DNA of 32,314 nt from a virus. Numbering within the stretch: position 1 is the first letter of the stretch; each line of letters begins with the position of its first letter. The position numbers were made by a program, and so were the translations under genes. The DNA is taken from IMG/VR virus record IMGVR_UViG_3300044971_001481, positions 1 to 32,314 of that record; one strand, written 5' to 3'. This document shows positions 387 through 28,466 of the stretch, piece by piece. The notes below the pieces were generated by a model. The model saw only the letters and a list, made by a program, of their open reading frames with translations, did not search any database and was not told the DNA's origin.

Positions 387-866
387 TTAAGACCGTCTTT
401 TCTTCCTCCATTCTCTCATATAAAGTGCGTGGGCGCTTATCTGCTCCTCTGGGAGGCGCTTTCCCTTGTTCCAAGCAGTTCTGCCCTTTAGAGAGTCTTT
501 CATCGCTTGTAGGGTCTCTGGGGTGTGCCTGCGACCGTAAAAACCATTCATATCACCACTTCTCTTCTTACAATTTTCTTTATGCCTTTCAGTACCAAAG
601 TATCCAGTATCTCCACCTGCTCCACCTTCACTTTTATTGTATAGAATGCCAGTTTTTATATCCTTCCTACCAAATACAGCAATCATATAAACTTCGTGCT
701 TAAATGCGTCTTCTTCAGTTAAGTTATTTTTAAGGATAAGTATCCTTTCTTTTGGTGGAACAGTATGAAATCCGTGCTTAACATACGCACGATTTCCTTT
801 CCCCTTACCAATATAATAAGGTGTGCCGTCTTCACGCAAGTATGCGTAAGTGTAGTATTCTTTCAT
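387..866 (-). CDS. Free-standing GIY-YIG homing endonuclease with NUMOD3-type tail
   Basis: A 159-aa protein. The N-terminal GIY-YIG-like nuclease domain (residues 1-75) shows TYAYLREDGTPYYIGKGKG (6-24), in which the paired Tyr and YIG tracts are the family signature. The Glu in FKHEVYMI (about 58) fits the catalytic metal-binding Glu. The C-terminal half has NUMOD3-like DNA-contact motifs, GFYGRRHTPETLQAMKDSLKG (108-128) and AWNKGK (131-136), and a very basic end (WRKKRRS). Such stand-alone nucleases are mobile genes of T4-like phages that cut recipient genomes and copy themselves in. It sits between a helicase gene and small conserved genes. The start codon directly abuts the 3' arm of a perfect inverted repeat whose loop holds a late promoter. 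No strong Shine-Dalgarno is visible in front of the ATG. Confidence 0.85.
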   Translation of the reverse strand: MKEYYTYAYLREDGTPYYIGKGKGNRAYVKHGFHTVPPKERILILKNNLTEEDAFKHEVYMIAVFGRKDIKTGILYNKSEGGAGGDTGYFGTERHKENCKKRSGDMNGFYGRRHTPETLQAMKDSLKGRTAWNKGKRLPEEQISAHALYMREWRKKRRS

Positions 867-947
867 TGTAGGTCTTGGCGAGACTATATCTATTTATTAT
901 AGCATAAAGGTGGGACTTACGCAACTACATTTCCGCCAAGACCTACA
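867..947 (-). promoter_or_regulatory. 14-bp inverted repeat with late promoter in its loop, upstream of GIY-YIG gene
   Basis: TGTAGGTCTTGGCG (867-880) and its exact complement (934-947) flank a 53-nt loop; the inner arm touches the ATG at 866. Read on the minus strand, the loop contains AATAAATA (898-891), close to the T4 late promoter TATAAATA. Fused to it is an extended -10, TGCTATAAT (904-896). RNA reading through from the helicase gene would form the hairpin over the start region. RNA begun at either loop promoter would carry only the 3' arm and stay open. The repeat and promoter matches are read directly; the control role is inferred from T4 I-TevI and Aeh1 mobE. Confidence 0.7.
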
Positions 948-965
948 GTTGCTGCCCACATATAT

Positions 966-2147
966 CTATCTCTTGACTATACTATCAAGCATCTCACCAC
1001 GACCAAAGATGGTATCAACAACATTCTGAAGTCGCTTTTCGGTGGAAATACCAACTTGAGAGTAAATAGGCACGACACACAAACCAAAGGTCTTACAATC
1101 ACTACCCTTACGAAGAACTCGTCCAATAGTTTGGGTCATCTCAATCACATCCATATTACGAAGGAAAACCACAGTTTCCAACTCACTAATATTAATACCT
1201 TCACTCAATATGCTTCTATGGAGACAAACAAACTTTTTGTTAGAGTTTTTTCCCCAAGCATTAAGAGTATCAAAGAAAACCTCACGGTTGACTTTCTGAC
1301 CGTCAATCACGGCACCAGTCTTACTGGTGATATAAAGATAAGAATATCCCATATCATTCAGTTGAGTAGCAAAATCAGTTTGCGACATCAAGTTGATAAG
1401 TTGTTTAGCACTCTTAACGCAAACAAGAACCTTGCTGGTGCTATTTTCTTGTAGAGTTTCTATAATATTGTTACAGTCACGGTCGGCAGAAATCTCATTT
1501 GCTTTAAGCACCTCAAACTTCTTTGCTTTAATAACTGGAGGAAGGATATAACCCTCTTCCACCAGTTTAGGAGCAGGAACACGGTAAATAATATCACCAT
1601 AAACGGCAACATCATTCATCCCAGGCTTGGAAATAGTCGCAGAAGTCCGACGAGTAGCAGTAAAGAAATAGCAGCGGTCAGCATTAGCAGCGAAATGCTC
1701 CGTAGCAGGGAAAAAGTGACGCTGAACGCTGTTGTGTGCCTCATCAAAGTAAATGGTATCAACTTGAATGTCTGCCTGCTGCAGACGCTGCAGGGAGTTG
1801 TAGGTGGTGAAAATCAGTTGATGCTTATAGGCACGGCGAGACCAGTTATGAATCTCAGAAGGTTTGGTGGTGCTTTGGTGATGCGTCTCACCACTATGAA
1901 CGTGCAGAACAGCAGCAGTCGTGATAAACTCAAGAAACTCAGAAGACAGTTGCTCGGCAAGCATAATGCGAGGAGCAACCACTACAATCGTCTTAGGAGC
2001 ATCGGATTGAAACTCACGCAGAGCATCAAAGATAGCAACGTTGGTCTTACCACCACCAGTCGGAAAAATAACCTGACCTTTACGATACTGCAGCAGGGCA
2101 TCCAGAGCACGTTGCTGGTGAGGACGGAGTTGAATCACAGGTCTCAT
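966..2147 (-). CDS. Superfamily 2 DEAH-box DNA helicase (UvsW/restriction-helicase-like)
   Basis: A 393-aa protein with the complete SF2 motif set: a Q-motif-like start RPHQQRALDALL (8-19), Walker A PTGGGKTN (29-36), DEAH (135-138) in IYFDEAHNS, motif III FTATR (162-166) and motif VI QTIGRVLRKG near the C-terminus. Motif VI includes the arginine finger. The fold is that of type III restriction/UvsW-like helicases, which remodel branched DNA in T4-type recombination and replication restart. It is shorter than T4 UvsW (about 500 aa) and lacks an obvious extra N-terminal DNA-binding domain. The ATG at 2147 follows an extended -10 promoter 14 nt upstream. Its own terminator is unclear, so transcription may continue into the endonuclease hairpin region. 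The exact biological role is inferred. Confidence 0.9.
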   Translation of the reverse strand: MRPVIQLRPHQQRALDALLQYRKGQVIFPTGGGKTNVAIFDALREFQSDAPKTIVVVAPRIMLAEQLSSEFLEFITTAAVLHVHSGETHHQSTTKPSEIHNWSRRAYKHQLIFTTYNSLQRLQQADIQVDTIYFDEAHNSVQRHFFPATEHFAANADRCYFFTATRRTSATISKPGMNDVAVYGDIIYRVPAPKLVEEGYILPPVIKAKKFEVLKANEISADRDCNNIIETLQENSTSKVLVCVKSAKQLINLMSQTDFATQLNDMGYSYLYITSKTGAVIDGQKVNREVFFDTLNAWGKNSNKKFVCLHRSILSEGINISELETVVFLRNMDVIEMTQTIGRVLRKGSDCKTFGLCVVPIYSQVGISTEKRLQNVVDTIFGRGEMLDSIVKR

Positions 2148-10040: not shown

Positions 10041-10113
10041 TAGGCGTGGTCGGATTCGAACCGACCCTGGAGGCGTTTTAAGCGCCCTGTCTCTGCCGCT
10101 GGACTACACGCCC
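10041..10113 (-). tRNA. tRNA with anticodon UAA (Leu by anticodon) but a short variable loop
   Basis: Cloverleaf read by hand on the minus strand: acceptor GGGCGTG with CACGCCT (first pair G-U), TA at 8-9, D-arm GTC/GAC with GG in the loop, anticodon stem GGGCG/CGCCT, loop CTTAAAA, 5-nt variable loop CCAGG, T-arm GTCGG-TTCGAAT-CCGAC, discriminator A. No CCA is encoded. The anticodon UAA would read UUA (Leu), yet bacterial tRNA-Leu normally has a long variable arm, so the charging identity is uncertain. It would help decode an AT-rich phage genome. A consensus sigma70 promoter lies just upstream. Confidence 0.85.
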
Positions 10114-28443: not shown

Positions 28444-28466
28444 TTTCAAAAGTTTTGTATAAAAAA

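Follow-up and report, generated by a model that had tools for sequence, protein, structure and literature searches.

A promoter-enclosing RNA module that probably locks homing-endonuclease translation in read-through RNA

The window analysed here is a 32,314-base virus record with T4-like genes, in which an inverted repeat ends directly at the start codon of a homing-endonuclease gene. We think it probable that this repeat is helix P2 of a portable RNA module, and that P2 would act as a translational lock on read-through RNA that is bypassed by local initiation. RNA reading through from the upstream gene would hold both arms, P2 would fold and the bases before the start codon would be buried. 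RNA begun between the arms would lack the distal arm, carry a leader of about 19-25 nt and be translatable. Placed in a foreign operon, the selfish gene would then not be expressed from the RNA of that operon; the nuclease would be made when its local promoter fires, which would be late and, in the class 1 modules described below, perhaps also host-type. The folding of this helix over the translation start in read-through RNA is a computed result, and the promoter placement, which would yield RNA without the 5' strand, was judged by motif and spacing only. Promoter use, transcript ends and the block to translation are what we infer from these sequences.

The two nuclease genes of the window

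By family and fold likeness the left gene is a predicted homing endonuclease. It matched NUMOD3 (E 2.4e-6) and the homing-endonuclease family phrog_314 (5e-12), and the Pfam GIY-YIG model gave no match to it. Residues Y5, Y7, Y17, Y18, G20, R26, E58 and N77, which we take to be the GIY-YIG residues, are invariant among 23 aligned sequences. The protein was also modelled with AlphaFold2, with modest model quality (pLDDT 71, pTM 0.43); a Foldseek comparison of the model with the PDB gave 46 matches, of which the best nine were UvrC GIY-YIG domains (E 0.05-0.24, prob 0.87-0.98).

Table 1. Positions of the features discussed in the text (window coordinates unless a locus is named).
Feature	Position	Strand	Remarks
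Left homing-endonuclease gene	387..866	-	159 aa, GIY-YIG + NUMOD3; profile/family matches
P2b, proximal arm, left gene	867..880	-	touches ATG of left gene
Predicted late start A, left gene	885 (offset 13)	-	leader 19 nt
Late-promoter motif AATAAATA	891..898	-	32 nt 5' of left ATG
Sigma-70-like pair	896..924	-	TTGCGT (919-924), 17 nt, TATAAT (896-901); overlaps late motif; sequence
P1, 3' strands	910..925	-	GTTGC (921-925), CCCAC (910-914), conserved GTAAGT (915-920) between; alignment A1
P2a, distal arm, left gene	934..947	-	within P1 loop
P1, outer 5' strand GTGGG	955..959	-	inner GCAAC 948-952; alignment A1
Upstream helicase gene	966..2147	-	presumed source of read-through RNA
tRNA gene	10041..10113	-	Rfam
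Right homing-endonuclease gene	28467..29114	-	NUMOD3 repeats; phrog_314 homing endonuclease
Class 2 P2b, proximal arm	29121..29136	-	
LP2, late motif CATAAATA	29140..29147	-	predicted start G 29134, leader 20 nt
Predicted LP1 RNA, 59 nt	29147..29205	-	P1 hairpin + terminator hairpin (29152-29173)
Class 2 P2a, distal arm	29188..29203	-	
LP1, upstream late-type motif TCTAAATA	29211..29218	-	overlaps thyX stop
glnA-like sequences	L335 about 800-890; L340 same; L002 upstream of 3302		

The first-pass annotation had described exactly complementary arms, a proximal arm adjoining the start codon, and a late motif fused to a second box in the loop. All of this was recovered: the arms match over 14 nt (100%) with 53 nt between them, the coding sequence begins at the base next to the proximal arm, and AATAAATA overlaps TATAAT in the loop, which reads TTTATGCTATAATAAATAGATATAG on the minus strand. 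Perfect repeats of at least 14 nt with a 15-120-nt spacer occur twice in the whole window, at the left and the right nuclease gene, while the same search on 100 dinucleotide shuffles of the window gave a mean of 0.01 and never reached two. The right-gene repeat is a perfect 16 bp with a 51-nt loop that encloses CATAAATA. Since the arm sequences of the two repeats differ, neither is a copy of the other. The right nuclease gene itself ends in AATAAATAA (window about 28460-28475); this late-type motif could drive the gene that follows.

Folding of the right-gene module as RNA gave -51.5 kcal/mol (z -8.5). At the left site, the folding check proposed in the first-pass annotation came out less clearly: the plus strand reached z -4.6 as first folded, but the sense strand (146 nt, -38.1 kcal/mol) only z -2.54, and 2 of its 200 shuffles folded equally well. 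The single left sequence is therefore only moderately unusual, and the comparative evidence is far stronger. Opening the left start region (-15..+5) was computed to cost 13.9 kcal/mol in read-through RNA versus 2.5 in RNA from the loop promoter. By eye the left leader AGTCTCGCCAAGACCTACA holds no GGAG-like site; the start-adjacent bases themselves are covered by the helix. We also considered the arms as terminal inverted repeats of a mobile element and rejected this reading because the repeat encloses the promoter and not the gene. An extra 9-nt repeat (843-851/915-923) was rejected as a further pairing, since it looks accidental.

Occurrence and build of the modules

Relatives were collected by two IMG/VR protein searches (the best 80 of 97 and the best 80 of 90 confirmed loci). 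We used 123 of these 160 loci, 37 of the second set being dropped because the match stopped short of the first residue; the 123 represent 83 distinct upstream regions. A helix scoring at least 9.5 lies near the ATG in 60 of the 68 distinct upstream regions that carry N[AC]TAAATA 22-60 nt 5' of the ATG, and in 0 of the 15 that lack a late motif (Fisher 4e-11). Eight loci have the late motif and no such helix (L047, L050, L053, L058, L064, L083, L088, L150). Pooling the protein-search loci with phage S-SRM01, named phages and pattern matches gave 126 distinct modules. Three of them without a helix (L394, L400, L401) were dropped, which left 123 distinct modules with 71 distinct arm pairs. Class 1 comprises 52 modules (25 distinct arm pairs) and class 2 comprises 71 (46 distinct arm pairs), the protein-search loci having been sorted by eye. 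As the modules are related by descent, these counts overstate their independence.

In class 1, the P1 hairpin, which holds the distal arm in its loop, is followed by the promoter and by the proximal arm at the ATG. P1 reads GTGGG-CA-GCAAC / GTTGC-GTAAGT-CCCAC, and its variants keep the pairing. The word GTAAG[TA] between the P1 halves (window 915-920) is invariant as GTAAG in the class 1 alignment A1; it showed no complementarity to the genes in general. A sigma-70-like element, TTG[AC]-16/18-TA[TA]AA[AT], lies over the late motif in 32 of 52 class 1 modules, with the left gene among those that fit, and could allow early expression. Class 2 combines a smaller P1 with an intrinsic terminator and a second late-type motif, LP1, before P1. 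The proximal arm in class 1 mostly reaches the ATG or stops no more than 4 nt short of it, and in class 2 it mostly ends 7-15 nt before the ATG; the late motif keeps a near-constant place in the loop across modules. The complementary word of the 9-nt repeat rejected above, ACTTACGC, is equally common after class 2 modules (15 of 24 YTYAY-type genes) and class 1 modules (31 of 48), and 14 class 1 matches that have other gene starts lack it, L409 among them being a chance match; that pairing was rejected on these counts.

Outside the protein searches, a 14-base class 1 pattern had at least 119 IMG/VR matches. Among the matches listed, 95 were distinct; 33 of these have a helix scoring at least 10 (TAAATA in 32 of the 33), three more have TAAATA with 9 bp, and the other 59 have neither. 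A scan of the whole S-SRM01 genome covered 274 TAAATA sites and found nine matches at eight places with a score of at least 10, against about two predicted from decoy hexamers. Five of the places lie before nuclease relatives, one before 56059 (a gene without family assignment), one before a gene-49-like endonuclease VII and one elsewhere. A further module, at the nuclease relative 18053, contains two G.U pairs and falls below the score-10 cut. Altogether, 6 of 12 listed S-SRM01 nuclease-like genes carry a module. The remaining six, taken as nuclease-like by family match, annotation or N-terminus, have none by eye (122512, 91458, 207752, 209850, 211986, 14565). The last of these (14565-15116) is a different GIY-YIG-like gene 3' of thymidylate synthase; CATAAATA is present there and no hairpin was seen. 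Rfam matched only a tRNA in the window, elsewhere than the modules. Among 18 related loci searched at E up to 0.5 it gave four matches, none at the modules, which correspond to no known RNA family in this search.

Readings of the helix

Compensatory changes maintain the pairing between the arms. In the set before removal of the three modules without a helix, a module's own arms scored at least 9.5 in 49 of 52 cases (class 1) and 69 of 74 (class 2), and exchange of proximal arms between modules lowered this to 17% and 9.5%, respectively. Among the 71 distinct arm pairs, the interior non-Watson-Crick pairs comprise 22 G.U, one A.C and five others (binomial 6e-6). Interior mismatches were treated alike on both strands, and an A.C here is a G.U on the opposite strand; the bias to G.U thus points to selection on the sense RNA. 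In eight modules, namely seven of class 2 and the left one, opening of the start region (-15..+5) was computed to cost 9.7-22.4 kcal/mol in read-through RNA versus 1.6-6.2 in the local RNA, which fits a lock on read-through RNA that is bypassed by local initiation. The hairpin-lock reading of the first-pass annotation is in part supported, computationally, by sense-RNA selection, by the near-constant loop motif, by the position of the helix near the ATG and by the opening energies; its promoter, however, may not be late only. That annotation had proposed neither the P1 hairpin nor the occurrence of the module at many nuclease genes. A plain lock leaves the conserved P1 and, in class 2, LP1 and the terminator unexplained. 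The only moderate fold of the left site by itself, the eight late-motif loci and the six of 12 S-SRM01 genes without a hairpin, the presence of a module before the unassigned gene 56059 and the sigma-70-like element of class 1 also speak against it.

Other functions of the repeat fit these data less well. The helix could be a signal for RNA processing or decay, such as an RNase III site or a protector of the 3' end of the upstream message, and helices of 10-16 bp that tolerate G.U pairs would suit such a role; yet the proximal arm keeps its place relative to the start codon, not to the upstream stop, and a late motif lies between the arms, so that we judge this unlikely. We see a small chance that the repeat acts as DNA, as a protein-binding operator around the promoter. 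Its arms flank the promoter, and endonuclease autorepression has a precedent in I-TevI, which, according to PMC2988022, represses its late promoter through an operator resembling its homing site. However, a 22:1 bias of G.U over A.C is not expected from selection on DNA, the same modules precede different nuclease families, and the tested arm words are not repeated in S-SRM01 or the window outside the module. The arms had also been considered as homing sites themselves and were rejected as such: the tested words occur only one to two times in S-SRM01 or the window, as the module alone predicts. Template switching can keep repeats matched, and a palindrome might in this way stay perfect without any function, or arise by chance. 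This is hardly credible here, given the shuffle mean of 0.01 against two observed repeats, the strand bias of the mismatches, the tie of the helix to late motifs (Fisher 4e-11) and the presence of the repeat in relatives.

A more far-reaching reading, to which we give limited credence, concerns class 2. It would be a two-RNA system, in which an LP1 RNA of 53-62 nt pairs in trans with the LP2 nuclease message and limits its translation. P1 would present the distal arm in its loop, the RNA would end at the terminator, and class 1 would be the simpler cis form. Its own promoter and terminator are present in class 2 as sequence motifs. Of the 71 class 2 modules, 68 carry LP1 in the form N[AC]TAAATA, the second base being A or C without exception, and 69 have a terminator-like hairpin, which is found in 0 of 52 class 1 modules. 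Moreover, a class 2 pattern made of the terminator tail and LP2 only matched 86 IMG/VR stretches. Eighty of these are 47 distinct places with a helix in 43, and 41 of the 43 carry LP1, which was not part of the pattern; the remaining six stretches show arms and LP1 by eye. In class 1, TAAATA occurs 60-90 nt upstream in 14 of 52 modules, never with A or C before it, as if it were only the stop codon of the preceding gene. Ordinary S-SRM01 late motifs (upstream of 96 genes typed from 2 of 5 S-SRM01 pieces) do have A or C before TAAATA in 38 of 42 cases, and CTAAATA is given as the late motif of phage Aeh1 in PMC1524935.

Starts were predicted by the T4 rule, which places the late motif at -13 to -6 (PMC1524935). 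The base at +1 is then a purine in 68 of 68 cases after LP1 and 67 of 68 after LP2 (32 of 38 at ordinary S-SRM01 motifs). A T stands at -1 in 66 of 68 cases after LP1 and in 64 of 68 after LP2; as this holds for only 14 of 38 ordinary motifs, the T is not general and may reflect shared descent. The predicted 5' end of the LP1 RNA coincides with the first paired base of P1 or lies a few bases from it, and the RNA would measure 53-59 nt in seven modules and 58-62 nt in further ones. Two tandem late-type promoters on one strand are thus predicted to yield a small RNA and a nuclease message complementary to it. Cofolding gains of -11.7 to -19.5 kcal/mol were computed for own pairs, and of -9.5 at most for foreign pairs within S-SRM01, where the own message is the best cofolding partner for all six class 2 RNAs. 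Plain duplex energies, which ignore internal structure, are on the other hand unspecific, the S-SRM01 RNAs of 48536 and 192520 being slightly better with a foreign message, and two similar modules in one contig cross-pair (-13.7, -18.3). The P1 swap test was weak (45 of 53 real pairs versus 50% of swapped ones), and three of 71 class 2 modules (S-CREM2, L380, L405) have no LP1. Empty relatives of the thyX site already carry TCTAAATA at the stop, so that LP1 of the right gene may be native. LP1 and LP2 would furthermore fire together, which offers no clear timing logic. Action of the class 2 LP1 RNA in trans is possible on this evidence. The wider proposal, of interchangeable control modules of cyanophage homing endonucleases that move across unrelated nuclease families, with a self-targeting antisense RNA on top of the cis lock in class 2, is put forward with similar reserve.

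Mobility of the modules and relation to known systems

The genes 3' of the modules encode GIY-YIG, HNH and endonuclease-VII-like proteins as well as two phrog_5018 proteins; most other module-borne genes were judged by their first residues only. An initial guess of PD-(D/E)XK for L490 and L469 was dropped when PHROGs assigned them to phrog_5018, of unknown function, and a PDB sequence search with L490 returned two weak matches to designed proteins only. Upstream, 54 hairpin loci with a readable frame of at least 60 codons fall into 20 gene groups (blastp E 1e-3). Within one family, phrog_655 (MNYLKVYCN...), class 1 modules occur in L507 and L440 and a class 2 module in L403, which shows that modules are swapped.

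At two sites the module lies within the insert. In relatives without the left gene the helicase stop runs straight into the next small gene. The left insert begins no more than about 10 nt after the helicase stop. Its end is the nuclease stop; the sequence behind it, AACTGGCACACTCTGC, is shared in part by the empty relatives L222 and L237. These borders place the module inside the insert. The DUF1825/gp32 site is empty in the window, and the class 2 insert of S-SRM01 starts there with TAAATA directly after the stop, which indicates that LP1 arrived with the insert at this site. Class 2 modules without an intact nuclease gene behind them were seen in L349 (from 4473) and L370 (from 5299); L349 reads ATT where relatives read ATG, and both modules look like relics of lost inserts. 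In L121 (3131-3398), matches to a group I intron (E 7e-15) and to abiF RNA (E 4e-6) lie 3' of the nuclease gene. Homing-endonuclease-like genes of RN05-S, S-B43 and Sf-CH5 have a glutamine (glnA) riboswitch-like sequence upstream by eye, and nothing there reaches the Rfam gathering score; in L070 an Rfam match below threshold lies at 1969-2022 (24.9 bits, E 0.45).

If true, the lock would show how a selfish gene lands in many operons unexpressed, bringing its own RNA lock and promoter. A lock of this type is independent of the nuclease type and hence recognisable from sequence. The module could be used to find unannotated nucleases, of which three are filed as 'translation initiation factor 2' and others as 'hypothetical', and it is a candidate compact timing device. 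The three are GIY-YIG/NUMOD3-type genes (S-SRM01 62515, B23 41542 and Sf-CH5 156271).

The principle of the lock is a known one; what differs is how the module is built, how widely it occurs among nuclease families, and the second promoter with its terminator. PMC2988022 and PMC3014915 describe for I-TevI, segB and mobE a start that is buried in read-through RNA and freed by a nearby late promoter, and T4 I-TevI, I-TevII, I-TevIII and segB as well as Aeh1 mobE share the principle of a start freed by local late initiation. The T4/Aeh1 precedent invoked in the first-pass annotation is thus stated in PMC2988022, but the T4 hairpins are built differently, and none of 15 T4 homing-endonuclease genes has the arrangement found here. 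Our T4 genome scan gave no helix score of at least 8.5 around TAAATA at these 15 starts or at e, soc and 49. By eye, T4 I-TevI and e have a short hairpin whose 5' strand contains or adjoins the late motif, whereas in the present modules the promoter is flanked by arms of 10-16 bp, for the most part separated by about 40-60 nt, and P1 is present as well; class 2 adds LP1 and the terminator. A consensus Shine-Dalgarno sequence sequestered in the helix is stated for the three I-Tev genes in PMC2988022, whereas the left leader has no GGAG-like site by eye. T4 e, soc and 49 (PMC3014915) likewise have a late start inside or next to an inhibitory structure but are host phage genes rather than mobile cassettes; gene e is served by two late promoters, and both RNAs lack the 5' part of the structure.

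The trans-acting class 2 RNA is the novel reading. A cyanophage RNA tied to a homing-endonuclease gene is also described in PMC2984593 and PMC12197685, namely CfrI at psbA/F-CphI of S-PM2; this antisense RNA is about 225 nt long and on the opposite strand, whereas the class 2 RNA would have 53-62 nt and lie on the same strand. F-CphI of S-PM2 has both a terminator and a late motif, but inspection by eye gave no matching arms. Type I toxin-antitoxin systems use a small structured RNA that is complementary to the message of a harmful gene around its start. The predicted class 2 RNA differs in lying in tandem on the same strand, and its predicted target is a homing endonuclease. As of 2010, no small trans-acting regulatory RNA from T4 had been functionally characterised according to PMC3014915. 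PMC5931967 describes a 36-bp repeat within the leader of psbA in S-PM2d, which is different from the modules here. In the portions of CC-licensed literature consulted we recognised no description of a cyanophage endonuclease hairpin or small RNA of this kind.

Two endonuclease-VII-like genes of S-SRM01 have short-loop repeats and form a cyanophage parallel to T4 gene 49. At 126172 (L171 28172-28582) a 12-bp repeat with a 31-nt loop surrounds a late motif, and at 142306 (L171 44306) the repeat TTTATAATAC/GTATTATAAA surrounds TATAAATA.
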